NCBI GenBank assembly: GCA_024244705.1
Contig: JAAEOK010000119.1
Coordinates: forward strand, 1-49,426
Length of the DNA: 49,426 nucleotides
Source of the DNA: Alphaproteobacteria bacterium
GTDB taxonomy: Bacteria > Pseudomonadota > Alphaproteobacteria > JAAEOK01
Direction: 5' to 3'
This document shows, one piece after another, positions 2,966-19,172 of the stretch. Under the pieces are notes generated by a model, which saw only the letters and a program-made list of their open reading frames with translations, did no database searches and was not told where the DNA came from. The translations under genes and the position numbers were made by a program. How positions within the stretch are numbered: position 1 is the first letter of the stretch; every line of letters begins with the position of its first letter.

Positions 2966-3041
<76 letters not shown>

Positions 3042-3154: not shown

Positions 3155-6007
3155 CTAGTTTCGCTCGGATGGTGTGTTTGGTGGCTTATTCTCGGTCGCA
3201 AGAACCCGCCAATCTGGCCAAGCGGCGGGGTCCAGGAGGAGATGGGACTCAAGACAAGCGACGAAGCGCTGCATGAGTAGGTGTGTCGCGGCGGCATGGT
3301 CGGTCGCGCCGTCGACCTCGAGGGGCGGATAGGCGACGACCCGGAAGTGGCGGTCGCCGTCGCGCAAGACAAATACCGGGATCAAAGCGGCGCCGGTTGA
3401 AAGGGCCAGCCGTGGCGGCCCCGTCGCGATCGTGATGCGGCCATCGAAGAAGGGTAGCTCGGTTGGCCTATCGGAGTGGAACCTAGCGTTGATAGACACG
3501 ATCCCATTCCGGCCGAGCAGCTGCCGGACCTGCTCGACGGACTGCTGTCCGTCGCCCGCGACGAAGATGCGGTCGCCGCGCAGGGACCCCTCCCACTCGC
3601 GCGACATACGGTTGAGGCCGAATTGGCCGACCCTAGTGGTCGAAAATCCGTATTGCGGACGCGCGAGGGTGGTCGCTCGAAAGCTGGCCTCTTTCAAGGC
3701 GACTCGGGTCGCCAAGGCACCGGAATAAAGCGGTGCCCGCCACAGGATAACCCCCCTGCCCCGGTTTAGCCCGGCGTCGATATGAACACGACCTTCGAGG
3801 GCAGCCGTCGGCGAGTCGACGTCGCTGGACCAGCCGTTCAATCGTAGGAGCAACTCCTCGAAAAAGTTTGCCATGCCTTCTGTGACCAGCGCCCGAGGCG
3901 GCAAATCGCGCGACCGGTTTCCAAGGACCCGACCGATCGCCTCCATCTTGGTCCGTGTGCTCCGTCGCCGAGCCGACGTGGCGAGCTTGGCGAGAGCTCG
4001 CAAGGTGTTCCTTGTTCGCTGTTTTGGAGATAGTCGGTCCGCGATGCCCAGCACAAGCAAGAGGGAAGGCGTAATCAGATCGTGGATGTCTATGGTCTTG
4101 GCCGGAATCGAATAACCTATGCGCGGGTCTGGTGCGGCGCTTGGTGATTTCTCGTCGACACCGGGCAACGACCCGCGGACGAGATCGGCGAGTTCCGCGA
4201 CCGTGCCGGCCCGCGACCAGATCACATCGGCATTCAATCTCACGCCCCACTTCTCTTCGATCGCGACGACAAGCTCGATCGACGTTAAAGAATCCGCGCC
4301 AAGGCCGATGATATCGTCGTCGATTCCAACCGGCGTGGCGTCAAGCAAATCCTCCAAGAGCTCGACGAGCGCATATTCGATTTCATCCCGTGGCCGGCCC
4401 TCGTGCCGAGCCGGCGCTTCGACACTGGGCGTGCGCGCCGCCAAGGCACGGCGGTCGATCTTGGCGCTCGCCGTGCGCGGCAACGAATCGAGGCGGACCA
4501 GCCTGGTCGGGATCATTGCCTGGGTCAGCCTCTCGCTCAATTTTGCGCGAATCTCGCGGACCGTTGGGGCACCGACATGGCTGACGTAATAGGCGGCCAA
4601 CCGGTCGGGGTTACCGCCTTCGGCATGGGGCTCCACAACCGCCGCCACTTCGTCGATCCCGTCCAGGTCGAGCAAGGCGGCCTCGATATCGGAAATTTCG
4701 ACTCGATTGCCGAGCACCCTGACCCGGTCGTCCGTACGGCCGGCCAACCGCAAGCATCCGTCATCTGCCATGACCCCCAGGTCGCCGGTTCGGTAAAGGC
4801 GTTCGTCGGTGCCCTCCAGGGATAGAAAAGCCTGTGCCGTAAGATCGGGCCGTTTCCAATATCCCTTTGCCAGATAACGGCTCTTGATTACGATCTCGCC
4901 AATCTCTCCGGCCGGAACATCATGCCCGCCCTCGTCGCGCAATAGCAGTTCCATACCGTCCACCGGGTATCCGACCGGCACGGCGCCATCGCTCAAGATC
5001 CTGGACCGGTCGATGAAATGCCGCCGGTAGGTCCCGGCCTCGTTACAGGCGACTTGATTGATCAGGGTGTCGCTGTTGGGAAAGCGGCGCTTCCACAAAT
5101 CGACATCGGACCGATAGACCGGATCGCTCGTCAGAACCACGGTACGGACCGTGGCACATTGGTTGCCGTCGGGAATCCCCGCCAATGCCCGGCGCATCAC
5201 GTTGACCGGGATCAGACAGATCGTTACCCCTCGCGTGCCCAGCCACGTGAACAAACCGGCTGTGCCTTTTCTCCTGATATCCCATGGGCAAAGGGTCGCG
5301 CCGCTGAGCAGGGCGGCGAGGATGACCCGCACGCTCGCCATGGTGCTGACATGGCGAACAAGTAACACTCCGTCGTCCGGCCTCATTCCGCACGCGACGG
5401 CAAAATAGCCAGCGCGGGCAAGGAAACTGCGATGGGATTGAACGACTCCCTTCGGGCTCCCGGTGCTGCCGGACGTATAGTAAATCGCGGCCACGGTGTC
5501 GGGCGACAGAACGACATCGGGATCGTGAATGGGCGCCGCCGATTTCAGCTCGTCGATATTCACCACACGGCAGGTGCTCGGAATGACGGCGGGTACCGCC
5601 GCCGCGTTGCGTTTATCCGTAAGACATAGGCTCACCTCCGCGTGACGGGCGATGTCCGCATTGCGCCGTGAAGGATGATCGGGGTCCAAGGACACATAAA
5701 TGCGGCCCATCCTCAACAGCGCCAAGGCGCCGGCGATGAACGGCGCGCCGTGCTCAAGGAAGAGCGCGACGGCGCCGGTCCCTGCGGCCTGATCCTGTCG
5801 CACCCGATGGGCGATTCGGTTAGCCCACAGGTTGAGGTCTCGATAAGTGACGTCGCCCTCCGGATCGGCTACTGCGATACGGTCCGCAAACGCTTCCAGC
5901 CGCGGATCCAGGCACTCCGGAACGCTGGCCTCGAATCCGGTTTGCGTCAGTTGCTCGATGTTTGCCGTTCCGCATTGCGGTGGCGGACTGTCCCTGGTGT
6001 CCAACAT
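3155..6007 (-). CDS. adenylation-carrier-LpxL-like acyltransferase fusion protein
   Basis: A 950-residue, three-part protein. Residues ~20-525 form an AMP-binding adenylation domain: YYTSGSTGSPKG (177-188) is the ATP loop, YRTGDLG (405-411) binds adenosine and ribose, and Lys516 in RTASAKIDRR is the catalytic lysine. Residues ~540-612 form a carrier domain with LGADSL; Ser573 would carry phosphopantetheine. Residues ~740-930 resemble LpxL/HtrB lipid acyltransferases (LPFFDGRITIATGPPRLAL at 851-869). It therefore probably activates an acid, loads it on its own carrier and passes it to a lipid or other acceptor. Oddities: the HX4(D/E) catalytic pair appears replaced by Pro759 and Ala764, and the A4 motif has Met223 where NRPS domains have the Asp that binds an alpha-amino group. 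There is no condensation or thioesterase domain. The start ATG is at 6007. Confidence 0.8.
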   Translation of the reverse strand: MLDTRDSPPPQCGTANIEQLTQTGFEASVPECLDPRLEAFADRIAVADPEGDVTYRDLNLWANRIAHRVRQDQAAGTGAVALFLEHGAPFIAGALALLRMGRIYVSLDPDHPSRRNADIARHAEVSLCLTDKRNAAAVPAVIPSTCRVVNIDELKSAAPIHDPDVVLSPDTVAAIYYTSGSTGSPKGVVQSHRSFLARAGYFAVACGMRPDDGVLLVRHVSTMASVRVILAALLSGATLCPWDIRRKGTAGLFTWLGTRGVTICLIPVNVMRRALAGIPDGNQCATVRTVVLTSDPVYRSDVDLWKRRFPNSDTLINQVACNEAGTYRRHFIDRSRILSDGAVPVGYPVDGMELLLRDEGGHDVPAGEIGEIVIKSRYLAKGYWKRPDLTAQAFLSLEGTDERLYRTGDLGVMADDGCLRLAGRTDDRVRVLGNRVEISDIEAALLDLDGIDEVAAVVEPHAEGGNPDRLAAYYVSHVGAPTVREIRAKLSERLTQAMIPTRLVRLDSLPRTASAKIDRRALAARTPSVEAPARHEGRPRDEIEYALVELLEDLLDATPVGIDDDIIGLGADSLTSIELVVAIEEKWGVRLNADVIWSRAGTVAELADLVRGSLPGVDEKSPSAAPDPRIGYSIPAKTIDIHDLITPSLLLVLGIADRLSPKQRTRNTLRALAKLATSARRRSTRTKMEAIGRVLGNRSRDLPPRALVTEGMANFFEELLLRLNGWSSDVDSPTAALEGRVHIDAGLNRGRGVILWRAPLYSGALATRVALKEASFRATTLARPQYGFSTTRVGQFGLNRMSREWEGSLRGDRIFVAGDGQQSVEQVRQLLGRNGIVSINARFHSDRPTELPFFDGRITIATGPPRLALSTGAALIPVFVLRDGDRHFRVVAYPPLEVDGATDHAAATHLLMQRFVACLESHLLLDPAAWPDWRVLATENKPPNTPSERN

Positions 6008-6903: not shown

Positions 6904-6951
6904 ATGTTGATCTAATTCAATATGTTAGCACGTGATTCACGGCTCACTTCG
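6863..6951. repeat. palindromic repeat-like element overlapping a gene end
   Basis: The perfect arms CGTTTCAG (6874-6881) and CTGAAACG (6893-6900) surround an 11-base loop, and a shorter palindrome CGTGA-T-TCACG follows near 6931-6941. The style (AGAGCA start, GATCG-TTTCAG, CTAATTCAAT, then GTGATTCACG) resembles short interspersed palindromic units I know from alphaproteobacterial genomes. It supplies the stop codon and tail of the GNAT protein. Only one copy is in the window, so repetition is inferred. Confidence 0.45.
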
Positions 6952-7040
6952 TTGCGACGAGAGCCGACCACGCCCTAGACTCGGAACAGGGCTGGGAAGC
7001 CGCCGCCCCGAATTCGCTTGAATCTCCCAAACGGCGATCA

Positions 7041-7067
7041 AAAAAATGGCCCCGCCGGTTGCGGGGC
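7041..7067 (-). terminator. intrinsic terminator after the Flp pilin gene
   Basis: On the minus strand, GCCCCGC (7067-7061) pairs with GCGGGGC (7055-7049) around a 5-base loop and is followed by CA and a T run (7046-7041). It lies 70 bases past the stop codon of the pilin gene, exactly where a terminator is expected. Confidence 0.85.
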
Positions 7068-7137
7068 TATTCTCTCGTTGGTGGAGTCGCAGTTACTCAA
7101 TCGTTCTTCGCCTAACCCCACTACTGTCGGCGAATTG

Positions 7138-7320
7138 TCACTCGGCGCCGGACCCAAAGGGACCCGCAAACCAAGCGAGCGATTCGAACACACCCATGAA
7201 TGTTGAACCGATGGCTCCGAGCATGGCGACACCGGTGAGCGATACGAGCATCAGCACCGCCCCAACTTCGATCGTCGTCAGGCCCGTCTCATCTTGCAGC
7301 AACCCCGAATTCCAACCCAT
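7138..7320 (-). CDS. Flp/Fap-type pilin subunit (orphan)
   Basis: A 60-residue prepilin. After a short leader (MGWNSGLLQDETG) comes LTTIEVG and a hydrophobic stretch (AVLMLVSLTGVAMLGAIGS). Prepilin peptidase would cut after Gly13, leaving Glu18 at +5, the signature of type IVb Flp pilins; the residue after Glu is Val where Tyr is usual. Starting at the ATG at 7320 places GAGGGG nine bases upstream, better than the TTG at 7329. It would assemble into Tad pili for adhesion. No tad/cpa assembly genes are present in the window, so they must lie elsewhere. A consensus CtrA box sits upstream, as for pilA of Caulobacter, and a terminator follows. Confidence 0.78.
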   Translation of the reverse strand: MGWNSGLLQDETGLTTIEVGAVLMLVSLTGVAMLGAIGSTFMGVFESLAWFAGPFGSGAE

Positions 7321-7402
7321 CGTAACCAACCCCTCGTTGACCCAAACATACGCGGCTAATGCGATGTGTCGCGCATCTGCATCATGAAAATGCGGGAGTC
7401 AA

Positions 7403-7417
7403 TTAAAAAAACATTAA
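7403..7417. promoter_or_regulatory. consensus CtrA box upstream of the Flp pilin
   Basis: TTAA-N7-TTAA, a full match to the CtrA consensus, lies 83-97 bases upstream of the pilin start codon. On the minus strand a TTGACT element directly follows it, so the box would sit at or just above the -35 position, as at CtrA-activated promoters. The surrounding 7395-7450 is markedly AT-rich. Confidence 0.6.
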
Positions 7418-7590
7418 TATTCAATGATTTAATAAAATTTTCCTGAATATTTAGCTAACCAATATTGGGAAAAGGATTGGTAACCATAGTCTCGTTGTAG
7501 TGCGGAATTTGGCGGCCAGGCGTTCGGGCCGAAGCTTTAGAAACGGCACCGACCCATCCCAAGCCGCTCGCCCATCCGCGATTTCGACCG

Positions 7591-7818
7591 GAAAGAAAAA
7601 CCCCGCCGAAGCGGGGTCAAGTCGTTGGAGGCATAAGACGATGTAAGGTTGTCGTTATCTGTTCAAGAGACGCCACATCTAAACAATTACAATTACTACA
7701 TTAAGGGAATGGCGAAATGGAGTTCGCCAGGGCAACGGCGAAAGCCCGTTATTGCCCTATAAAGCGATGCCGATTCACGCAACCGGTCGTATCGACGGAC
7801 TTCGAACGGCGGCATCGC
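7591..7818 (-). ncRNA. candidate structured small RNA (about 228 nt)
   Basis: No convincing protein is encoded here, but the minus strand has all parts of an RNA gene. In order: the 5' stem GCGATGCCG/CGGCATCGC (7818-7810 with 7772-7764, nine perfect pairs, with an inner hairpin); a second stem AGGGCAA/TTGCCCT (7758-7752 with 7735-7729) capped by a smaller hairpin; a third stem TGGCGAA/TTCGCCA (7729-7723 with 7716-7710) whose loop reads CTCCAT; and an intrinsic terminator at 7617-7595. The second and third stems share position 7729. A promoter-like pair at 7854-7825 predicts a start near 7818. The exposed CUCC loop could pair with Shine-Dalgarno sequences, as in many alphaproteobacterial regulatory RNAs. 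It matches no family I can name. Confidence 0.5.
7595..7617 (-). terminator. intrinsic terminator of the candidate small RNA
   Basis: On the minus strand ACCCCGC, the loop TTCG and GCGGGGT (7617-7600) form a perfect seven-pair stem with a stable tetraloop, followed by a T run (7600-7596). No protein gene ends before it on this strand, which is a main reason for proposing an RNA gene here. Confidence 0.85.
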
Positions 7819-7824
7819 CTGGTC

Positions 7825-7854
7825 ATATTCCCTGGTCCCATTGAGTGCGATCAA
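7825..7854 (-). promoter_or_regulatory. possible promoter of the candidate small RNA
   Basis: On the minus strand TTGATC (7854-7849), an 18-base spacer and GAATAT (7830-7825) would give a transcript starting about 7818, the first base of the long 5' stem. The agreement of promoter and stem positions supports both; each alone is weak. Confidence 0.4.
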
Positions 7855-7887
7855 TTCGTCCTTCGCCACCAATGTCGCAGTGGTTTC

Positions 7888-7902
7888 TTAACAATGGGTT
7901 AA
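7888..7902. promoter_or_regulatory. consensus CtrA box near the candidate small RNA
   Basis: A second perfect TTAA-N7-TTAA lies about 70-84 bases upstream of the predicted RNA start. The motif is nearly symmetric, so it could serve either strand; no rightward gene begins nearby. Confidence 0.45.
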
Positions 7903-8273
7903 CACGAATAGTTTTAGCCAAATTTTGCAAAAATGAACCGTAAAGGGCCGCTATTAAGGAAGTCTTAGGGGTATTTCGGATCCGGCGAGTTTTGTTGCCG
8001 TTTCGATCATGGTTAACCGTTCACTAACAATTCATGAACATTTCGTGAATCCACCCCCGGTAACACGTTGATATTCCGTAATTTCTATATTTAGAAAAAT
8101 TCTTTTCGTTGCGCTGGCGCAGATTAGCCGAGGCTGTCCCGCCTCGTCCGATCGATAAATTTGGTCGCTGTTCAAAATCGGACGGTTTGAATCCGATTTG
8201 CCACCAGATCAAACGCCATGACCGTCCCGCTCAGCACACGGGTCGGGGCGCCCAGGGATGGCTCAGGCCCAAT
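7903..8273. other. AT-rich intergenic region with a near-CtrA site
   Basis: No convincing gene is seen. TTAA-N7-CTAA at 8013-8027 misses the CtrA consensus by one base. Possible open frames here lack ribosome sites and protein-like composition. The region lies downstream of the CBS gene. Confidence 0.4.
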
Positions 8274-8870: not shown

Positions 8871-9830
8871 CTACATTCTGATGTTGAACCCCGGGGAGTC
8901 GACCGGTCGATAGATATTGCCGGGCGGAATCAATTCCTGGCCGCACTCGAATGGCGGAAAACTATCATCACGGAGCGTCGGAAGTGGCTTACGGGCCGCC
9001 GTTCCTGCCGGGAGATACCCAAATTTCTCCATGACCGCGCCTTGATCTCGGACGAGGCGCTCGACAAGCCTTGGCTTGAGTTCCGATTTCCATTGGCCGG
9101 CTCTGCCACTGCGGAAGAACTTCCGCCCCTCCGGCGCCTCGATGAAGCCGGATCTGGACTCCTGTGCCTTGAGTTTTTCAAAGCTGGAATTTTCGATCGC
9201 GCGGGTCATCTGATCGCGATTAGGCGATAGGCCGACGTGCCTCACCATGGCATCGAAACTCTTCATCGGATCGCTGAGCATGTCTTCGTACCGAACAACC
9301 AGCAACCGCGGATGCGGCCGACGGGTCCAGCTATGCACATGGTTGGCCCACGATGACATGAAGATGCTCACATTGTTCTTGTCGCGCAGCAATCGCACAT
9401 CAGTCCGCCCCATCCGGCGTATCGTTTCCAGCGTGCTGATACCCCAGAAATTCGCCAAGGAAAGAACGATATCCAACGGATTTCGGACAATATAGATCGC
9501 GCCGGATGTGTGGTCCGGAGAGACCAAGTGACTGTTGAGATAACGGGCGCACGCACAATGCGTTTTCAGAATCACGCCGCCGGTGGAAAGGCTTGAAAGG
9601 TAGGTCAGGGCCTCGGGACGCCGGCGCATCGTTTCCGCGTCGGTCATCTGGCTGACGTCGCCGCCGGTGAATCGCATCCACCATCGCACGGAGGTATCAC
9701 CGGTAATGAAATTCTTCGTGGAATTGATATTCACCTCTTCATCCCCGTCGGTGAGGAGATTCTCGAAAAACAAACGAGACCAAGTGTTTCCGGACTTGGG
9801 ATATGACGCGAGCCAGATAATCCCGGCCAT
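8871..9830 (-). CDS. PAPS-dependent sulfotransferase domain protein
   Basis: A 319-residue cytosolic sulfotransferase-like enzyme that would move sulfate from 3'-phosphoadenosine 5'-phosphosulfate to an alcohol or amine. YPKSGNTW (residues 10-17) is the 5'-phosphosulfate loop, IYIVRNPLDIVLSL is the 3'-phosphate site with Arg and Ser, and FRSGRAGQWK near the C-terminus is the second PAPS contact, the RxGxxGxWK element. A GGAGG five bases before the ATG at 9830 fixes the start; a GTG four codons earlier overlaps that site. No sulfate-activation genes are adjacent, and the acceptor cannot be deduced. Confidence 0.85.
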   Translation of the reverse strand: MAGIIWLASYPKSGNTWSRLFFENLLTDGDEEVNINSTKNFITGDTSVRWWMRFTGGDVSQMTDAETMRRRPEALTYLSSLSTGGVILKTHCACARYLNSHLVSPDHTSGAIYIVRNPLDIVLSLANFWGISTLETIRRMGRTDVRLLRDKNNVSIFMSSWANHVHSWTRRPHPRLLVVRYEDMLSDPMKSFDAMVRHVGLSPNRDQMTRAIENSSFEKLKAQESRSGFIEAPEGRKFFRSGRAGQWKSELKPRLVERLVRDQGAVMEKFGYLPAGTAARKPLPTLRDDSFPPFECGQELIPPGNIYRPVDSPGFNIRM

Positions 9831-10199
9831 CAATACCTCCACATCGGGCTAATTCATCGACTGGTGTGATCGCCGCGGCGGTCGCGACGTATTTGGTTCG
9901 AATCGGGAATATGCCCCATGATTGAGCTGATTTGAACCGCCTTGGCACGAGGTGGCGGTTGCTGCGGATGCGCCAATTTCAATCGGTATCTCGCCTGCGT
10001 GAGGTCGAAAAGAACGGCGTGCCCTGGGATGCAAGATTCACGTCGATTTCAATGGCTCTGTGCGGCGCCACAGCGCGGTGTCTTGCCAACGCCGGGCAAA
10101 GCCGCTACCAGCTTGAGTCGATCGATCGGCTCCGGCGCAAAGAATTTGTGTTCTTGTCCGCACCATCGAGCCGATTCCAAGGACCAGTTGGAGGACATC
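9831..10199. other. intergenic region
   Basis: Between the sulfotransferase start and the small exported protein I see no gene with a ribosome site and plausible composition, and no clear RNA or terminator. Confidence 0.4.
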
Positions 10200-10513: not shown

Positions 10514-11794
10514 TCAGAGCATGTCGCGAATTCGAAAATAGAGCATTGCAAGCGCCAGCAGAGGCGTCCGCAAGAGGCGCCCGCCGACGAAACTGTGATG
10601 GGGCAAGCGTTCGAATGCGTCGAACCGCTCGGCGGTGCCGGCGATTGCCTCGGCCACGACGCGACCGGCAATGCCGGTCATCGCCACGCCATGACCCGAG
10701 AAGCCCTGGGCAAAGTAAATGTTGTCGGAGAGCCGGCCGATATGAGGTGAGCGCTCGACCGTGATCGCTACATTTCCCCCCCATACATAGTCAACCCGAG
10801 CTTCGGCAAGGTCGGGAAAGACACGCACCATCGATCGTCGCATTGACGATTTCAGGCTTGGCGGGGGCATCGTCGTGTAGCTGACCTTGCCGCCGAAAAG
10901 CATACGCCGGTCGGCCGAGAGACGAAAATAGTCGAGAACGAAGTTTACATCCGCGACTGCTAAATCGTTGGGTATCAGGCGCTTAGCCAACGACTCGGCC
11001 AGGGGTTCGGTGGCGATGACATAAGTGCCGACGGGCATGACCTTGCGGCGCAGGACCGGCACCAGATCCCCGAGATAGGCATTTCCGCACAGCACGACAT
11101 ACTTGGCCCGGATCGTGCCAGCGGAAGTCTCGATGACCGGATTCGCTTGGCCGGTAATGCCAATGACCGGCGAGCCTTCGAAAATTCGCACGCCGCCCGC
11201 AACCGCGACACGGGCAAGTCCGAGCGCATAGTTGAGGGGATGAAAGTGTCCCCCACCATGGTCGAGCAAGCCACCGCAATAGGCTGCTGACGCCACTTCC
11301 TCGCCCATCCGGTCTCGGTCGAGGAGCTCGAATTGATCGTAACCGTAGTCCGAGTTGCAGCCTTCGGCTTCGGCACGCAACTCATCGATATGCCGGGGCT
11401 TGACCGCCGCAAACAAGTAGCCGCGCTTGAGATCGCACTCTATCGCATGCTCTCGAATACGCTCGTATAGGAGCGACTTGGCTTCCTCCGCCAAAGCCCA
11501 CAGAATCTTTGCATCTGCTTCGCCGACCTGGTTTCGAATCTTATCCATGCCGGAAGCAAATCCGGTGACGATTTGTCCCCCGTTGCGGCCAGACGCGCCC
11601 CAGCCGATGCGGTTGCCCTCGACCAAGACCGTATCGTAACCGCGGGCGGCGAGTTCGATGGCGGCCGAAATTCCGGTGTAGCCGCCGCCGACGATACAGA
11701 CATCCGCCGCAACAGTTCCCTGCACGGTCGGATGGTCGACCATCCCGTTGGCCGATGCCGCGTAGTAGGAATCGACGTGAGGTTCAGCAGCCAT
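10514..11794 (-). CDS. FAD-dependent oxidoreductase, gamma-glutamylputrescine oxidase-like
   Basis: A 426-residue flavoenzyme of the D-amino-acid-oxidase (DAO) family. VCIVGGGYTGISAAIELAARG (about 33-53) is the FAD Rossmann loop, GWGASGRNGGQIVTG (about 65-79) is the flavin-contact region typical of the PuuB/PauB oxidases, and FAQGFSGHGVAMTGIAG near the C-terminus is the second FAD motif. These enzymes oxidise gamma-glutamylputrescine or related glutamylated amines to the aldehyde. It is divergent from the glutamylpolyamine synthetase gene across a 194-base gap, which supports a polyamine role. The ATG at 11794 is preferred to the TTG/ATG two codons earlier. Other amine substrates remain possible. 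Confidence 0.83.
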   Translation of the reverse strand: MAAEPHVDSYYAASANGMVDHPTVQGTVAADVCIVGGGYTGISAAIELAARGYDTVLVEGNRIGWGASGRNGGQIVTGFASGMDKIRNQVGEADAKILWALAEEAKSLLYERIREHAIECDLKRGYLFAAVKPRHIDELRAEAEGCNSDYGYDQFELLDRDRMGEEVASAAYCGGLLDHGGGHFHPLNYALGLARVAVAGGVRIFEGSPVIGITGQANPVIETSAGTIRAKYVVLCGNAYLGDLVPVLRRKVMPVGTYVIATEPLAESLAKRLIPNDLAVADVNFVLDYFRLSADRRMLFGGKVSYTTMPPPSLKSSMRRSMVRVFPDLAEARVDYVWGGNVAITVERSPHIGRLSDNIYFAQGFSGHGVAMTGIAGRVVAEAIAGTAERFDAFERLPHHSFVGGRLLRTPLLALAMLYFRIRDML

Positions 11795-11988
11795 CAGCAC
11801 AAAACACCCCGATCACTCATCCTCGGCCCAGATATCATATTTGCGAGGTGCCGCCCACGACACTTCCTCTTGCCACCGGATAGCAGCCTATAGGATTATC
11901 GGCGTCGATCGGTCGAAGGCACTACACAATTCGTTCGCGTTGATAGCTCTCCGATCATGTTATCGGCAATGCATCAAAAGAGATTCAA

Positions 11989-13356
11989 TTGGCAAAGCAC
12001 TCAAAATCAATGGATGGGTGGATCCAAACGCAGAAGGTAACCGAGGTCGAATGCATGATCGCCGACCTCGCGGGAATTGCACGCGGCAAAATTCTGCCCA
12101 GCGAAAAATTCTTGGCCGGTCACAAAGAACGCACCCTGCGCCTTCCCGAAGCGGTTTTTGTGCAAACCGTTTCCGGCACCTATCCTGAAGAGGATGACCT
12201 CGATCATCGAGTTTCCGATCCGGCCAACATCGATGTGGTCATGGTGCCCGATGCCGAGACGATTCGGCTTGTGCCGTGGTATGAGGAACCGACCGCGCAG
12301 GTGATTTGCGATTGCTACTACGCCGATGGCCGCGAGCTCGATTTCGCCGCACGCAGTGTCTTGAGGCGGGTCCTGAAACTATACGATGACAAGGGTTGGA
12401 AGCCGCTGGTGGCGCCGGAACTGGAATTCTTCCTGGTCCGCGTCAACACCGATCCTGACTATCCACTGGAACCCCCCGTCGGTAGCTCGGGGCGGGCGGA
12501 AACCGGGAGGCAGGCGTTCGGTATCGACGCCGTTAACGAATTCGATCCGCTTTTCGAAGACATCTACGACCACTGCGAAGCACAGGGTTTGGATATCGAC
12601 ACGCTGTCTCACGAGGCCGGGGCAGCGCAAATGGAAATCAATTTCAATCACGGCGATCCGCTCGAGCTCGCTGATCAGGCATTCCTATTCAAGCGGACCG
12701 TGCGACAGACCGCTCTTCGCCACAACATCTATGCGACATTCATGGCAAAGCCGATGTCGCAGGAGCCCGGCAGTTCGATGCATATCCACCAAAGCGTGGT
12801 GGATGCGAAGACCGGACAAAACCTCTTCGCGACCAAGAGCGGTGCGGATTCGAAACTATTCCGATCCCATGTCGCCGGACTCCAAAAATACCTTCCACAA
12901 TCGATGCCGCTCTTTGCGCCCAACGTAAATTCCTACCGCCGGTTGCTTCGCTATTCGGATGCGCCGATCAATGTCCATTGGGGCCTGGACAATCGGACGG
13001 TCGGACTGCGGGTTCCGGTCTCCGGGCCCAAAGCGCGGCGGATCGAGAACCGGATCGCCGGCGCCGACGTCAATCCCTATCTGGCGATCGCCGGCTCGCT
13101 AGCCTGCGGCTATATCGGTATGGTCGATAAATTGGACCCACGCGAACCGGTCGAAGGAAGCGCCTATCGGTTGGCCCATACCCTGCCGCGGCATCTATTC
13201 GACGCGCTGAGGCGTTTCAACGCCTGCAAGCCCCTGAGGGACCTTCTCGGGACCCGATTCGTCGATACCATCGACCTCGTCAAATCGGCGGAACTGGACG
13301 CGTACCAGGAAGTCATCAGTTCTTGGGAACGCGAACATCTTCTGCTAAATGTATGA
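11989..13356 (+). CDS. glutamine synthetase-family gamma-glutamylpolyamine synthetase
   Basis: A 455-residue enzyme of the GSIII-like/PuuA-SpuB branch of glutamine synthetase. It would use ATP to join glutamate to the amine of putrescine or another polyamine. Landmarks are ELEFFLVR with the metal-binding Glu, HEAGAAQMEINFNHGDPLE (the central GAGQxEi-type metal site), SSMHIHQS (His for ATP/metal), and the Arg-containing RIENRIAGADVNPYLAIA loop. It begins the run SpuB, SpuC, SpuD, SpuF, SpuG, SpuH. The first possible start is TTG at 11989, behind AAAAGAGA; an ATG at 12010 is the alternative. Relatives act on ethanolamine or amines in general, so the exact amine is inferred. Confidence 0.85.
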   Translation: MAKHSKSMDGWIQTQKVTEVECMIADLAGIARGKILPSEKFLAGHKERTLRLPEAVFVQTVSGTYPEEDDLDHRVSDPANIDVVMVPDAETIRLVPWYEEPTAQVICDCYYADGRELDFAARSVLRRVLKLYDDKGWKPLVAPELEFFLVRVNTDPDYPLEPPVGSSGRAETGRQAFGIDAVNEFDPLFEDIYDHCEAQGLDIDTLSHEAGAAQMEINFNHGDPLELADQAFLFKRTVRQTALRHNIYATFMAKPMSQEPGSSMHIHQSVVDAKTGQNLFATKSGADSKLFRSHVAGLQKYLPQSMPLFAPNVNSYRRLLRYSDAPINVHWGLDNRTVGLRVPVSGPKARRIENRIAGADVNPYLAIAGSLACGYIGMVDKLDPREPVEGSAYRLAHTLPRHLFDALRRFNACKPLRDLLGTRFVDTIDLVKSAELDAYQEVISSWEREHLLLNV

Positions 13357-13536
13357 CACATGGCTGCGTTACGTCGAAATCTTGACCCCGTTGGACTGTG
13401 CCGGCACAGCGAAATGCTGTTGCTGTGCGCGCGCATCGGTTTCAACCCCTAGTTCCGAGTTCTGAATTACCGATGTTGAAATGGCTGGCCAAAGCCATTT
13501 CGACGCGATTCTGGACTTTGACCAGGGAGCGGTAAA

Positions 13537-14907
13537 ATGGCTTTTTCAGAAAGAACGACACAGGAGTGGCAGGCGCTCGACCGACAGCACCTGCATCCGT
13601 TCACTGACTACAAGGAGATCGCCAAAATCGGCAGCCGGGTGATTACCCGCGCCGAGGGCGTCTATTTGTGGGACAGCGAAGGCAATCGGATTATCGACGG
13701 CATGGCCGGGCTGTGGAACGTCAACATCGGATATGGCCGGCGCGAGTTGGCGGATGCCGCCTACCAACAAATGCTGCAATTGCCTTACTACAACACGTTT
13801 TTCAAAACCGCGACGCCGCCATCCATCGAACTGTCGCGCGTTCTAACCGAGATCACGCCTGACGGGCTCGATCACGTGTTCTTCGCCAGCTCCGGTTCCG
13901 AAGCAAACGACACCATCGTGCGCATGGTTCGTCACTATTGGAACCTGATGGGCAAGTCGAAAAAGAAGACATTCATCAGCCGCGAGTACGCCTATCACGG
14001 CAGCACGCTGGCCGCCGCCAGCCTTGGCGGCATGAAGCCGATGCACGACGTCGCCGACCTGCCGCTCGATGGCTTCGTTCATGTCATGCCGCCCTACTGG
14101 TACGAATATGGCGAAGACCTCTCGCCGGAGGAATTCGGGCTCAAAGCGGCGCGCGCGATCGAGGACAAGATCCTTGAACTTGGTCCCGACAAGATCGCCG
14201 CCTTTATAGGAGAACCGATCCAGGGCGCCGGCGGCGTTATCATTCCGCCGCAAACCTATTGGCCGGAAGTACAGCGCATCTGCAAAGAGTACGACGTCCT
14301 GTTGATCATCGACGAGGTAATCTGCGGATTCGGCAGGATCGGCAAGTGGTTTGCGAGCGAGGCACTCGACATCGTGAAGCCCGATTTCATGACCCTGGCC
14401 AAGGGCATTACATCGGGATACCTCCCATTGTCCGCGGTGATGGTCGGCGACCGCGTCGCGAAGGAGTTGCTGGCTGAGGGATCTGAATTCACCCACGGGT
14501 TTACCTATTCAGGCCACCCGGTGCCGTGTGCCGTTGCCCTCGAGAACATCCGTTTGCTGGATGAGGAAAACATTGTCGAACGAGTTGCCAACGAGGTCGG
14601 GCCGCATTTCTGCGCCCGTTTGAACGCACTGGCCGATCATCCGCTGGTCGGTGAAGTGAGGGCGCAAGGGCTGATTGGAGCCGTTGAACTCGTTGCCGAC
14701 AAATCATCCCGGCGTCACTTCGACGATATCGGCAAGGTCGGTGGCATCTGCCGCGACCATTGTACGCGACAGAACCTTGTTCTCCGCGCGGTTCGCGACT
14801 GTATTGTCGCCGCGCCGCCGTTGGTCATCTCGATATCGGAGATTGACGAATTGATGGATGGCCTGGAGCGATGTCTCGATCTTACCATGGATGAAATCGC
14901 GAGCTAG
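13537..14907 (+). CDS. class III aminotransferase, putrescine-pyruvate type (SpuC-like)
   Basis: A 456-residue PLP enzyme that moves an amino group from putrescine or cadaverine to pyruvate. GLWNVNIGYGRREL (about 58-71) and FFASSGSEANDT (about 114-125) are class III motifs; LLIIDEVICGFGRIGKWFA contains the Asp that pairs with the PLP ring nitrogen; and FMTLAKGITSGYLPLSAVMV contains the Schiff-base Lys. Many omega-aminotransferases look alike, so pyruvate and putrescine are assigned mainly by context: it lies between the glutamylpolyamine synthetase and the polyamine-binding protein, as in the Pseudomonas spu operon. GGGAGCGG precedes the ATG. Confidence 0.87.
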   Translation: MAFSERTTQEWQALDRQHLHPFTDYKEIAKIGSRVITRAEGVYLWDSEGNRIIDGMAGLWNVNIGYGRRELADAAYQQMLQLPYYNTFFKTATPPSIELSRVLTEITPDGLDHVFFASSGSEANDTIVRMVRHYWNLMGKSKKKTFISREYAYHGSTLAAASLGGMKPMHDVADLPLDGFVHVMPPYWYEYGEDLSPEEFGLKAARAIEDKILELGPDKIAAFIGEPIQGAGGVIIPPQTYWPEVQRICKEYDVLLIIDEVICGFGRIGKWFASEALDIVKPDFMTLAKGITSGYLPLSAVMVGDRVAKELLAEGSEFTHGFTYSGHPVPCAVALENIRLLDEENIVERVANEVGPHFCARLNALADHPLVGEVRAQGLIGAVELVADKSSRRHFDDIGKVGGICRDHCTRQNLVLRAVRDCIVAAPPLVISISEIDELMDGLERCLDLTMDEIAS

Positions 14908-15033
14908 CGTTGCGGGAAATTGATTTCACCGACTAACCAAAGCTTGCAGCAAAGCCGGAGCGCGGTAAACTTCGGCACTAAGGACCACAACAACAATGGA
15001 CCGTACAACCAATAGTCAGACAGGGAGACGATC

Positions 15034-16134
15034 ATGAAACGGACAATGACAGCGGCCGTATCGGTCGCAAGCATCCTGGCCCTCGCTGCCTCGGCGGCGT
15101 GGGCCGATGAAGAAAAGGTACTCAACGTATACAATTGGTCGGACTACATCGCCGAAGAGACGATCGCCAACTTCGAGAAAGAGACCGGAATCAAGGTCAA
15201 CTACGATGTGTTCGACTCCAATGAAGTCTTGGAAGGGAAGCTATTGGCCGGCAATACCGGCTATGACATCGTGGTGCCGTCGGGCGCGTTCCTCGAAAGA
15301 CAGATCCAGGCTGGAGTCTTTCAGGAACTCGACAGGAACCAGCTGCCGAACCATGGCAACCTGGACGACGAAATCCTCGGCAATGTCGCCGTGCACGACC
15401 CCGGAAACGCCCACGCGATTCCCTATATGTGGGGCACCACCGGGTTCGGCTACAACATCGACATGATCAACGAACGCATGGCCGATGCGCCGGTCGGCAG
15501 TTGGGACATGATCTTCAATCCGGATGTCGTTTCCAAGTTCGCCGATTGCGGAGTCACCTTGCTTGACGCGTCGAGCGAAGTTCTCGAAACCGCGCTCAAT
15601 TACCTCGGGCTCGATCCCCATACCGAGGACAAGGAAACTCTGGCAAAGGCCGAAGCGCTGCTCCTTACGATCCGGCCCTATATCAAATACTTCCACTCGT
15701 CGCAGAATATCAACGACCTCGCCAACGGCGACATCTGTCTCGCTATGGGATGGTCGGGCGACATGCTGATTGCTCGAGACCGCGCCGACGAGGCGGAACA
15801 GGGAATCAATGTCGCCTACGTGATCCCCGAGGAAGGCGCGGTGATGTGGTTCGACCTCATGGCGATACCGGCCGGCGCGCCGCATCCGCAGAATGCCCAC
15901 GCGTTCCTGAATTACATCATGGAGCCGCAGGTCGTAGCCGATATCTCGAATTACGTCTTTTACGCCAATGGCAATGCGGCCGCGACCGAACTGGTCGACG
16001 AGGAGGTCACTGGCGACCCCGGCATCTACCCGTCGGACGAGGTAAAGGCAAATCTGTTCGCGGACAAGACCGTCTCACCCAAGATGGACCGGCATCGCAC
16101 ACGCGCCTGGACAAAGATCAAGACTGGGCAATAA
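15034..16134 (+). CDS. polyamine ABC transporter substrate-binding protein (PotF/SpuD-like)
   Basis: A 366-residue periplasmic binding protein. Residues 1-24 form a signal peptide (MKRTMTAAV...ASAAWA). The mature start VLNVYNWSDYIAEETIANFEKETGI is the hallmark of the PotD/PotF family; the Trp-Ser-Asp segment lines the ligand pocket. YDIVVPSGAFLERQI, IPYMWGTTGFGYN and CLAMGWSGDM are further family blocks. It delivers putrescine or spermidine to the permeases encoded downstream. The next gene is separated by a strong hairpin, a typical way to keep the binding protein more abundant than the membrane parts. Confidence 0.93.
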   Translation: MKRTMTAAVSVASILALAASAAWADEEKVLNVYNWSDYIAEETIANFEKETGIKVNYDVFDSNEVLEGKLLAGNTGYDIVVPSGAFLERQIQAGVFQELDRNQLPNHGNLDDEILGNVAVHDPGNAHAIPYMWGTTGFGYNIDMINERMADAPVGSWDMIFNPDVVSKFADCGVTLLDASSEVLETALNYLGLDPHTEDKETLAKAEALLLTIRPYIKYFHSSQNINDLANGDICLAMGWSGDMLIARDRADEAEQGINVAYVIPEEGAVMWFDLMAIPAGAPHPQNAHAFLNYIMEPQVVADISNYVFYANGNAAATELVDEEVTGDPGIYPSDEVKANLFADKTVSPKMDRHRTRAWTKIKTGQ

Positions 16135-16155
16135 TCGCCGCATAAGGATTGTGGC

Positions 16156-16186
16156 CGGGGTCCCCGACCAATAGCCGGGGACCCCG
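16156..16186 (+). promoter_or_regulatory. strong intercistronic hairpin between binding protein and ATPase genes
   Basis: CGGGGTCCCCG (16156-16166) and CGGGGACCCCG (16176-16186) are perfect 11-base inverted repeats with a 9-base loop. There is no T run, so it looks less like a full terminator than an mRNA-stabilising or attenuating stem 22 bases after the stop of the binding protein gene. Confidence 0.7.
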
Positions 16187-16211
16187 CAGCGGGTGTGGGA
16201 GCAAACAGGCG

Positions 16212-17348
16212 ATGCCGGATCCGACCACTTCATCACCAGACGCGTGGAATTCACCGGACGCGGTTCCCTATGTCCGGATCCAGAATGTCACCAAGCAATT
16301 TGGCGACTTCACCGCGGTAAGGAACGTTTCGCTCGATATTTACGAGCGCGAGTTGTTCTGCTTGCTCGGTGGATCCGGCTGCGGGAAATCCACTCTTTTG
16401 CGCATGCTTGCCGGCTTCGAGTTGCCGACCTCCGGGCAAATCCTCATCGATGGCGTCGATATGTCCGGCATTCCGCCTTACGAACGGCCGGTCAATATGA
16501 TGTTCCAGTCCTATGCGTTGTTCCCGCATATGAATGTCGAACAGAATATTGCATTTGGCCTTAAACAGGATGGTGTGGCCAAACCGGAGATCAAGCGCCG
16601 CGTCAGCGACATGATCGAACTTGTGCAACTGGGCCAGTTTGCCAAACGGAAACCGCACCAACTGTCGGGCGGCCAGCGGCAGCGGGTTGCCCTCGCCCGA
16701 AGCCTGGTTAAACAGCCGAAACTGCTCTTGCTCGACGAACCGCTCGGCGCACTCGACAAGAAACTACGCGAGGAAACTCAGTTTGAGCTGGTGAATATCC
16801 AGGAATCCGTCGGCATTACCTTCGTCGTCGTCACCCATGACCAGGAAGAGGCGATGACGCTGTCGACCCGTATCGGTGTGATGGACCAGGGCGAGATTGT
16901 CCAGACCGGGACACCGTCGGAGATATACGAGATCCCAGACAGCCGCTTTGTCGCCGATTTCGTCGGTTCGGTGAACATGTTCGCGGGACGGATCATCGAG
17001 GACGAGCCCGATCATGTCGTGATCGAATCGGAAGAGTCGGGAGGTCGCATTCGGGTCGAGCACGGTATCAGCGGCCATGTCGGACAGCAGGTCTGGGTCG
17101 CCCTCAGGCCGGAAAAAATCATCATCGGCACGGAGCAACCCACCCAGGAGACGAATGTCATAAAGGGACGCGTCGACGAGATCGCCTATCTCGGAAACTC
17201 TTCGGTCTTTCGCGTCCGCCTCGATAACGGTCGGATTGTCAGGGTCACGAGGCCGAATATCTATCGCGCGACGGAAGCCGACATCACCTGGGAGGACGAA
17301 GTCTATCTGAGCTGGCATGGCACCAGTCCGGTGGTGTTGACGTCGTGA
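16212..17348 (+). CDS. polyamine ABC transporter ATP-binding protein (PotA/PotG-like)
   Basis: A 378-residue ATPase that powers uptake by the two permeases. [10 protein letters not shown] is Walker [15 protein letters not shown] the Q-loop, [15 protein letters not shown] the ABC signature, [12 protein letters not shown] Walker B, and [10 protein letters not shown] the switch His. The C-terminal ~120 residues carry the TOBE beta domain typical of polyamine and other importers ([12 protein letters not shown]..., [10 protein letters not shown]). The start ATG (16212) avoids an extension through the upstream hairpin. Its stop codon overlaps the next gene's start, so translation is coupled. Confidence 0.94.
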
Positions 17349-18328
17349 GCGTGCCAGCCTCCACCACGGGCGGGCGTACTCCCGCCGATATCGAAAAAGG
17401 TCACGGCGTAAGCTCGCTGGCAGGTCTCGAAGCCGCGCTCGGCCGGGTCGGGCTGCGCGGTCGAACTTTGGTAATTCTGATCCCCTATTTGTGGCTGTTG
17501 CTGTTTTTCCTGATTCCATTCGTCATCGTCCTCAAGATCAGCCTGGCCCAACTTGCGATCGCCATCCCGCCCTATTCATCCTTGTTGAGTTGGACCGCCG
17601 ATGGGGCCCTCGAGATCAAGCTGCATTTTGACAATTTCCTGTTTCTCCTCGAGGACAGCCTCTATTGGGTGGCTTATCTGAATTCAGTCAAGATCGCCCT
17701 GATATCGACGGTGCTGTGCCTGCTGCTTGGCTATCCGATGGCCTACGGCATTGCCCGCGCACCCACCGCATGGCGAAATGTCCTGTTGATGATGGTGATC
17801 CTGCCGTTCTGGACATCGTTTCTGCTGCGCGTCTATGCCTGGGTCGGGATCCTTAAGAATAACGGCGTTATCAATAACGCACTGATGTCGCTCGGCATCA
17901 TCGATCAACCCATACCCATGCTGCACACGGACTTTTCGGTCTATATCGGGATCGTCTATTCCTACCTGCCGTTCATGATCTTGCCGCTTTATGCCAACCT
18001 GGAAAAACTCGACGGTACGCTCTTGGAAGCCGCCGCCGATCTCGGCTGCCGTCCTGCCAAAGCCTTTCTTTACGTGACTTTGCCACTTTCCCTGCCGGGC
18101 ATCATCGCAGGTTGCCTGTTGGTCTTCATCCCGGCGGTCGGTGAATTCGTGATACCGGCCCTCCTCGGCGGACCCGACAGTCTTATGATCGGGCGCGTTC
18201 TGTGGGACGAATTCTTTTCCAATCGAGACTGGCCGGTGGCTTCGGCGGTCGCCATCGCCGTGCTCTTGCTGTTGGTCGTCCCCATCGTCCTGTACCAACG
18301 CATTCAGATCCGGGAGCCGGGGGCGTAG
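17345..18328 (+). CDS. polyamine ABC transporter permease (PotH/PotB-like)
   Basis: A 327-residue inner-membrane subunit with six predicted helices; the first is LVILIPYLWLLLFFLIPFVIVL (about 39-60). The EAA loop that contacts the ATPase is GTLLEAAADLGCRPAKAFLYVTLPLSLPG (about 227-255). It begins at GTG, overlapping the preceding stop codon by four bases (GTGA), and is followed after one base by its partner permease, so all are one operon. The large first periplasmic loop is usual for PotB/PotH. Confidence 0.93.
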   Translation: MSVPASTTGGRTPADIEKGHGVSSLAGLEAALGRVGLRGRTLVILIPYLWLLLFFLIPFVIVLKISLAQLAIAIPPYSSLLSWTADGALEIKLHFDNFLFLLEDSLYWVAYLNSVKIALISTVLCLLLGYPMAYGIARAPTAWRNVLLMMVILPFWTSFLLRVYAWVGILKNNGVINNALMSLGIIDQPIPMLHTDFSVYIGIVYSYLPFMILPLYANLEKLDGTLLEAAADLGCRPAKAFLYVTLPLSLPGIIAGCLLVFIPAVGEFVIPALLGGPDSLMIGRVLWDEFFSNRDWPVASAVAIAVLLLLVVPIVLYQRIQIREPGA

Positions 18329-18329
18329 A

Positions 18330-19172
18330 ATGGTCCGGAATCGCTCCTTCTTTATTCTTACCGTGATGGCGTTCGGCTTCGCGTTTCTGTACGGCCCGAT
18401 CCTTTCGCTAATCATTTTTTCGTTCAACAAATCGAAGCTCGTAACGGTGTGGGGTGGATTTTCGACCCAATGGTATGGCGAGCTGATCCGTAACGATCAA
18501 ATCCTGCAAGCCGCCTGGGTAAGTTTGCGGATCGCGGTGATGAATGCGACACTGGCGGTAATCCTGGGGACGTTGGCGGCTTTCATTCTTGTCCGATTCG
18601 GTCGGTTTCGCGGCCGGACACTGTTTACCGGCATGGTCACCGCTCCGCTCGTCATGCCCGAGGTGATTACGGGTCTGTCGCTGTTGCTGCTTTTCGTCGC
18701 CATGGAGAGCGCCCTGGGTTGGCCGGCGGGACGCGGCATGACGACGATCACGATCGCCCATATCACGTTCTCGATGGCCTATGTCGCGGTGATCATCCAG
18801 TCTCGGCTTTCGGACATGGATGAATCCATCGAGGAGGCCGCACTCGATCTCGGTGCCCGACCGGGCAAGGTCTTCTTCGTGATAACCGTGCCAATCATCA
18901 CCCCGGCTTTGGTATCGGGCTGGTTGCTTGCCTTCACGATGTCCCTGGATGATCTCGTGATCGCAAGTTTTGTTGCCGGACCCGGCTCGTCGACGCTGCC
19001 GATGGTGATCTTTTCGAAGGTGCGGCTCGGCGTAAGCCCGGAAATCAATGCCTTGGCAACGATCATTGTTTTGTTCGTCGCCTCCGGCATTCTATTGGCT
19101 GGCTGGTTGATGATGCGCCAGGACAAGCGGCGTCGACGCGATGCCCAACTAGCGATCGCCGCCAACGAATAA
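18330..19172 (+). CDS. polyamine ABC transporter permease (PotI/PotC-like)
   Basis: A 280-residue second permease subunit with six predicted helices, the first at about residues 7-29 (FILTVMAFGFAFLYGPILSLIIF). The EAA loop is EEAALDLGARPGKVFFVITVPIITPAL (about 167-193). It follows the first permease with a one-base gap and closes the transporter operon. The tail is basic (RQDKRRRRDAQ), likely cytoplasmic. No clear terminator follows; a weak 5-pair hairpin near 19200 lacks a T run. Confidence 0.93.
   Translation: MVRNRSFFILTVMAFGFAFLYGPILSLIIFSFNKSKLVTVWGGFSTQWYGELIRNDQILQAAWVSLRIAVMNATLAVILGTLAAFILVRFGRFRGRTLFTGMVTAPLVMPEVITGLSLLLLFVAMESALGWPAGRGMTTITIAHITFSMAYVAVIIQSRLSDMDESIEEAALDLGARPGKVFFVITVPIITPALVSGWLLAFTMSLDDLVIASFVAGPGSSTLPMVIFSKVRLGVSPEINALATIIVLFVASGILLAGWLMMRQDKRRRRDAQLAIAANE

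Follow-up and report, generated by a model that had tools for sequence, protein, structure and literature searches.

A rare fusion of adenylation and carrier domains to an LPLAT-fold domain with altered catalytic positions in an alphaproteobacterial genome

A ligase and an LPLAT transferase share one protein in Aas, the acyl-ACP synthetase/lysophospholipid acyltransferase, in which a PlsC-type LPLAT domain precedes the ligase and no carrier is built in. In V. cholerae, activation, carriage and transfer are distributed over three proteins, such that AlmE adenylates glycine, AlmF carries it and the LPLAT protein AlmG attaches it to lipid A (PMC12930378; PMC3783018, the latter with the names AlmE and AlmF interchanged). 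VexE, the acyltransferase of the Vi antigen anchor, joins an LPLAT fold to another domain and is still active with a Tyr in place of the HX4D/E acid (PMC9597891). We searched the literature for a single protein combining an adenylation domain, a carrier and an LPLAT-fold domain and found nothing relevant, nor any description of the architecture or of the sequence motif reported below. Here we analyzed such a fusion in the window, that is, the whole stretch of alphaproteobacterial DNA under study (49,426 nucleotides). At a probability of roughly 45%, we read it as a self-contained enzyme that activates, carries and transfers an acyl group, a single-chain analogue of AlmE-AlmF-AlmG with a re-tooled LPLAT-fold site acting on a membrane (glyco)lipid.

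The first-pass annotation of this DNA had proposed an open reading frame at 3155-6007 encoding three domains that are normally on separate proteins, for which AlmE, AlmF and AlmG provide the separate-protein counterpart. The frame exists, with the correction that its 950 codons run on the minus strand from 6007 to 3155, the plus strand of the interval being interrupted by stops (Table 1). Pfam matched AMP-binding at residues 37-384, AMP-binding_C at 441-516, PP-binding at 547-610 and Lip_A_acyltrans at 848-918, and all four matches exceeded their curated cut-offs. The Lip_A_acyltrans match (PF03279, cut-off 22.3 bits) covered only the C-terminal 71 residues, and as a calibration of this profile E. 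coli LpxL scored 418 bits vs 36 for the window protein. Since two other full-length proteins carry the domains in the same order and the third domain adopts the PatA/LpxM fold in its AF2 model, the fused three-part architecture is far beyond chance, and the proposed fusion was borne out.

Table 1. Positions of the fused gene, its domains and key residues in the window, and of gene pairs and neighbors at related loci.
Feature	Position	Strand	Evidence
Gene, 950-aa adenylation-carrier-LPLAT-fold protein	3155..6007	(-)	ATG-to-stop frame; full-length relatives L002, L037
Adenylation domain, residues 37-516	4460..5899	(-)	PF00501 176.8 bits, PF13193 36.2 bits
Met223, A4 Asp position (PheA Asp235)	5339..5341	(-)	alignment with LgrA
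Carrier domain, residues 547-610	4178..4369	(-)	PF00550 41 bits
Ser573 in LGADS, predicted phosphopantetheine site	4289..4291	(-)	motif; kept in 3 fused proteins and L003
Third domain, residues ~641-935, PatA/LpxM fold	3203..4087	(-)	AF2 pLDDT 84.8; PF03279 36.4 bits
Pro759, HX4E His position	3731..3733	(-)	alignment with E. coli LpxL and LpxM
Ala764, HX4E Glu position	3716..3718	(-)	alignment with E. coli LpxL
Clade motif HGxS-x4-G-x3-LN, residues 786-799	3611..3652	(-)	Tyr786 (codon TAC) in window protein; His in 26/27 members
Arg842, LpxL Asp200/PatA Glu200 position	3482..3484	(-)	alignments
LPLAT-fold and ATP-grasp pair loci	L021:6756-9711, L063, L064, L065, L066, L067		
LPG_synthase_TM-like (PF03706) genes beside clade members, three genomes	L025:490-1542, L071:6460-7521, L072:8604-9770		

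Homologues with the same three-part order, which the first-pass annotation had proposed to look for, were found in L002, a full-length paralogue in the same genome (928 aa, 39% identity), and in G749, a genome from another order than the window (the order of G312) whose fused protein is open at its 5' end. L002 and the G749 protein share 72% identity in the adenylation core, 67% in the carrier and 56% in the third domain, and this high identity across all three domains indicates that the two are orthologous and that the window copy is an older paralogue. The window genome further encodes an adenylation-carrier-thioesterase cousin of 880 aa (L003, on G000:C36, L003:1441-4083), with 34% identity in the adenylation core, and, on contig C23, a third-domain protein that stands alone. 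L003 adjoins a gene resembling those for 2-oxoglutarate/iron oxygenases. Additional stand-alone members were found in G164, G280, G312, G227 and G620, in most of the G164 order, and in five genomes (~6 Mb) of one genus. All fused and stand-alone members belong to the class of the window, and the stand-alone relatives occur across that class. The closest PotA matches, on plasmids of Ruegeria and Azospirillum, indicate that the class is Alphaproteobacteria. The fusion is rare, with only three fused proteins emerging from about 1,200 genome searches. Searching 385 genomes of the class with the whole protein at 1e-120 returned no further fused copy (the G749 protein had been recovered through the third domain rather than the whole protein), a related-loci search of genome contigs gave just one distant adenylation-domain match, and the third domain had no match in plasmids. 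The genus and order of the window, as searched, contain its own genome only. In the phylogenetic tree the third domains of the three fused proteins form one clade with support of 98/98, a grouping that suggests that the fusion probably arose once. For L002 against G749, dN/dS by the method of Nei and Gojobori was 0.30 in the third domain, 0.30 in its core, 0.29 in the carrier, 0.17 in the adenylation domain and 0.79 in the linker, values that are approximate because dS is near 1. The value of 0.30 argues that the third domain is under selection, at least in this pair.

The adenylation domain of the window protein retains YTSGSTGSPKG, YRTGDL, GRxD and the A10 lysine, Lys516, and the carrier retains Ser573 within LGADS573L. 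These core motifs fit the earlier view of a ligase and carrier that look live, with activity inferred from the motifs. The nearest solved relatives of the adenylation domain are those of nonribosomal peptide synthetases (NRPS), such as LgrA (317.6 bits over two adenylation domains) and GrsA (173.8 bits), and TIGR01733 scored 277.6 bits, below its cut-off of 317.4. By its core motifs the pair qualifies as an NRPS adenylation-carrier module in all but the A4 Asp. In such domains this Asp holds the alpha-amino group of the substrate. The first-pass annotation had reported its absence; when aligned to LgrA the column holds Met223 in the window protein, and it is Tyr in L002, Gly in G749 and Ser in L003. 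With the Asp replaced, the activated acids probably have no alpha-amino group, and the window, L002 and G749 enzymes may take different acids. For an AlmE-like glycine specificity in particular, Met223 argues against an alpha-amino acid without proving the point. The A5 motif of the window protein, NQVACNEAG, is unusual, so that the substrate is not readable from the adenylation-domain sequence, and the pocket residues, which were read by hand from alignments, name no substrate. The NRPS-like character of the domain led us to reject a fatty acyl-AMP ligase as its default assignment.

An AF2 model of the third domain built from 13 family sequences reached a pLDDT of 84.8 and a pTM of 0.85. It matched PatA (5f2t) with Z 21.5 and an rmsd of 3.4 over 247 residues at 21% identity, and LpxM (5kn7) with Z 20.1 and an rmsd of 4.9 over 257 residues, while PlsC came next at 10.1; Foldseek was concordant, and PatA was the best match by profile as well as by fold. 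(A full-length AF2 model of the 950 residues from 4 sequences was poor, with pLDDT 51 and pTM 0.41, and was left unused.) These structural matches led us to reject an unrelated fold, and the LPLAT fold predicted for the third domain is secure. Alignment to E. coli LpxL (L076), and by HMM to LpxM (...VPHFGTWE...), placed Pro759 and Ala764 at the HX4E positions and thereby confirmed the reported loss of HX4E and of the PDQ loop; the distal acid of the dyad, in LpxL PDHD and in PatA Glu200, is replaced by Arg842. A clear HX4D/E elsewhere in the domain, the finding named at the outset as counting against this claim, occurred in 0/3 fused proteins.

The loss extends beyond the fused proteins. In an alignment of 27 clade members, the column of the HX4E His holds P in 11, H in 7, Q in 4, R in 3, N in 1 and Y in 1, and Glu is found in only one member of the 27 at the HX4E Glu column and likewise in one at the dyad-acid column. 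Lying 27 residues downstream of the HX4E His position is a different motif, HGxS-x4-G-x3-LN, in which the His is conserved in 26/27 members and Ser789, Gly794 and Asn799 in 25 each; Glu806 (24), Arg813 (26) and Asp643 (26) are further conserved columns. DSSP assigned domain residues 131 (P759), 158 (Y786) and 214 (R842) of the model to loops directly after strands 125-129, 150-154 and 208-212, respectively. Since post-strand loops in an alpha/beta fold line one sheet edge, the new motif may lie next to the abandoned HX4E site. The clade is apparently an undescribed LPLAT-fold branch with an exchanged active-site signature. The HGxS...G...LN loop might have a structural or lipid-binding role in place of a catalytic one. 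The window protein is the sole member of the 27 without the motif His; it reads YGFS, keeping the Gly, Ser, Gly, Leu and Asn. Its Tyr786 codon, TAC, is one base from CAC, and the substitution may be an assembly error in a draft genome. The first-pass suggestion of non-standard chemistry thus gained, through the clade-wide loss, a concrete candidate site in HGxS...G...LN. Because Tyr786 replaces the clade His, the third domain of the window copy may only bind lipid, as had also been proposed.

Generalized to all fused proteins, that proposal makes the third domain a non-catalytic lipid- or membrane-binding module and leaves the acyl-thioester of the adenylation-carrier pair to some other enzyme. 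The clade-wide loss of the canonical catalytic residues, with the window copy missing the clade His as well, is consistent with such a role, and L003 shows that an adenylation-carrier pair can join a separate release domain. However, the domain core is under purifying selection (dN/dS 0.30), and the clustered, near-invariant His, Ser, Asn, Glu and Arg (24-26/27) better fit an active site. The fused proteins also carry no extra release domain, and no transferase was recognized among the genes neighboring them. We therefore consider a purely binding role unlikely, though it deserves serious attention.

The acceptor of the predicted transfer can be approached through the lipid A genes. LpxC is encoded at C75:93192-94007 (299.5 bits) in this genome, which is 96.7% complete, and from its presence lipid A is probably made. 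Within the same genome PF03279 revealed no canonical LpxL-type protein; its matches were confined to the window protein, L002 and the C23 member, on contigs C119, C98 and C23, respectively. How a genome with LpxC and no recognizable LpxL finishes its lipid A is a question in its own right. If the fused protein were an LpxL stand-in, it would load a long-chain fatty acid and transfer it as a secondary lipid A acyltransferase, and the presence of LpxC without a canonical LpxL-type protein by PF03279 is what this role would predict. Yet the adenylation domain is of the NRPS type (by TIGR01733, below cut-off) and not a fatty acyl-AMP ligase, and the His, Glu and Asp positions of LpxL are all changed, which makes the stand-in distinctly improbable. 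Assignment of the window protein as an LpxL proper was ruled out, its catalytic features having been checked and found absent. For an enzyme that transfers a small acid onto a lipid of the membrane, our guess at the acceptor would naturally be lipid A or some other glycolipid of the envelope.

Flanked by tRNA-Thr (2966-3041) and a divergently oriented GNAT gene, the window gene stands on its own. Beside it we saw no operon partner, acceptor pathway or biosynthetic cluster, and a promoter and terminator scan gave results near chance. L002 is flanked on the same strand by an MFS exporter gene on its upstream side and, downstream, by a gene resembling nucleoside phosphorylases. This exporter, and the likeness in layout to single-module adenylation-carrier-thioesterase synthetases such as L003, would suit an NRPS-like enzyme that makes a small soluble metabolite, with the third domain standing in for a condensation or thioesterase domain and forming the ester or amide bond to a non-lipid acceptor. 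That the nearest folds of the third domain all act on membrane lipids or glycolipids, and that no biosynthetic cluster surrounds the window gene, renders a soluble product more doubtful still. A decaying duplicate of an L002-type enzyme, lacking transfer activity, is a very improbable reading of the window copy. Tyr786 does stand in place of the His of 26/27 members, and among the fused proteins this copy has the longest branch (1.7 vs 0.47 and 0.48). Yet the 950-codon frame is unbroken, the adenylation and carrier domains retain their motifs, GC3 stays even from domain to domain and most other clade-invariant third-domain residues are kept.

Several other features of the surrounding DNA were recorded. 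A sulfotransferase gene (PF00685) lies at window positions 8871-9842 on the minus strand, ~2.9 kb from the fused gene, and a second sulfotransferase gene lies near the clade member of G280; both may be due to chance. Between the GNAT gene and a CBS-domain gene, ~1.4 kb (6904-8270) contain no convincing open reading frame and no Rfam match. Positions 10514-19172 hold a putative cluster for putrescine or polyamine use, read from translations alone, with an FAD oxidase, a glutamine-synthetase-like enzyme, an aminotransferase and a PotFGHI-like ABC transporter. Aminotransferase-III neighbors were scattered and were given no weight.

The neighbors of the stand-alone members bear on the function of the clade. 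At 6/7 loci, members of stand-alone subgroup 'a', whose His position is occupied by Pro, have a Sugar-transfer-associated ATP-grasp gene (PF14397, ATPgrasp_ST) as neighbor, in same-strand, convergent and divergent orientation; the seven loci are sister genes and so represent few independent events. Adenylation-domain fusion and ATP-grasp adjacency say twice over that clade proteins go with a carboxylate-activating enzyme. Another stand-alone subgroup, together with the C23 and G761 members, adjoins GT2 glycosyltransferase genes, and clade members in three genomes adjoin LPG_synthase_TM-like genes, identified by Pfam on the L071 copy and by BLAST grouping with it for the other two. GT2 or LPG_synthase_TM neighbors fit envelope lipids, as expected. 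A tentative and broader reading, which we hold with some doubt, is that an undescribed LPLAT branch moved catalysis from HX4E to HGxS...G...LN, that fusion to an adenylation-carrier pair in one lineage gave a single-chain enzyme adding an unusual carboxylic acid to a lipid of the membrane, and that the stand-alone members do much the same in partnership with ATP-grasp ligases.

For the single-chain activate-carry-transfer enzyme we propose the following mechanism. The adenylation domain would adenylate a small carboxylic acid, probably one bound other than through an alpha-amino group, before the acyl group moves onto the phosphopantetheine arm of Ser573; both steps are predicted from motifs. 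The C-terminal PatA/LpxM-fold domain, at the inner membrane, would accept the thioester directly from the fused carrier and acylate a (glyco)lipid at a hydroxyl or an amine, a chemistry suggested by the fold. As candidate for the new catalytic or binding site we propose the HGxS...G...LN loop, located where the next strand ends; in the window copy, with Tyr786, transfer may proceed more slowly, take an altered form or be assisted by the substrate. Overall, this is a real, selected and rare fusion with a likely but predicted mechanism, the window copy being the odd one of its clade. If the proposal is true, a new lipid modification can be made by one protein, and a transferase fold that is very widespread can shift its catalytic site. 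The three-in-one layout makes the loaded acid and the recipient lipid both addressable with a single purified protein.

Compared with the described systems, the window protein resembles each in part. PatA is its best match by fold and profile, yet PatA uses a His together with Glu200 and is unfused, whereas the window protein has Pro759 and Arg842 and is fused. With LpxL and LpxM it shares the fold and a PF03279 score above cut-off, but it lacks HX4E and the distal Asp and scores far below E. coli LpxL. VexE keeps the essential His and the distal Asp and is fused to a TPR domain (PMC9597891), whereas the present clade kept none of these residues as a rule and its fusion is to an adenylation-carrier pair. 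The LPLAT domain of the window protein is of the LpxM/PatA type, follows the ligase and is accompanied by a carrier, so that the features of an Aas-type protein were absent. L003 has a related adenylation-carrier pair in which the A4 Asp is also missing, but it ends in a thioesterase and the window protein in an LPLAT fold. The closest parallel in working order is AlmE-AlmF-AlmG, where adenylation, carriage and transfer by an LPLAT protein related to LpxL follow in series, although these are three separate proteins vs one 950-codon chain here, and AlmE uses glycine whereas the A4 Asp of the fused proteins is Met, Tyr or Gly and their acid is probably a different one. Because it is one chain and because the A4 Asp is lost, we do not file the fused protein as a member of the Alm system and describe it instead as a protein that would work like it.
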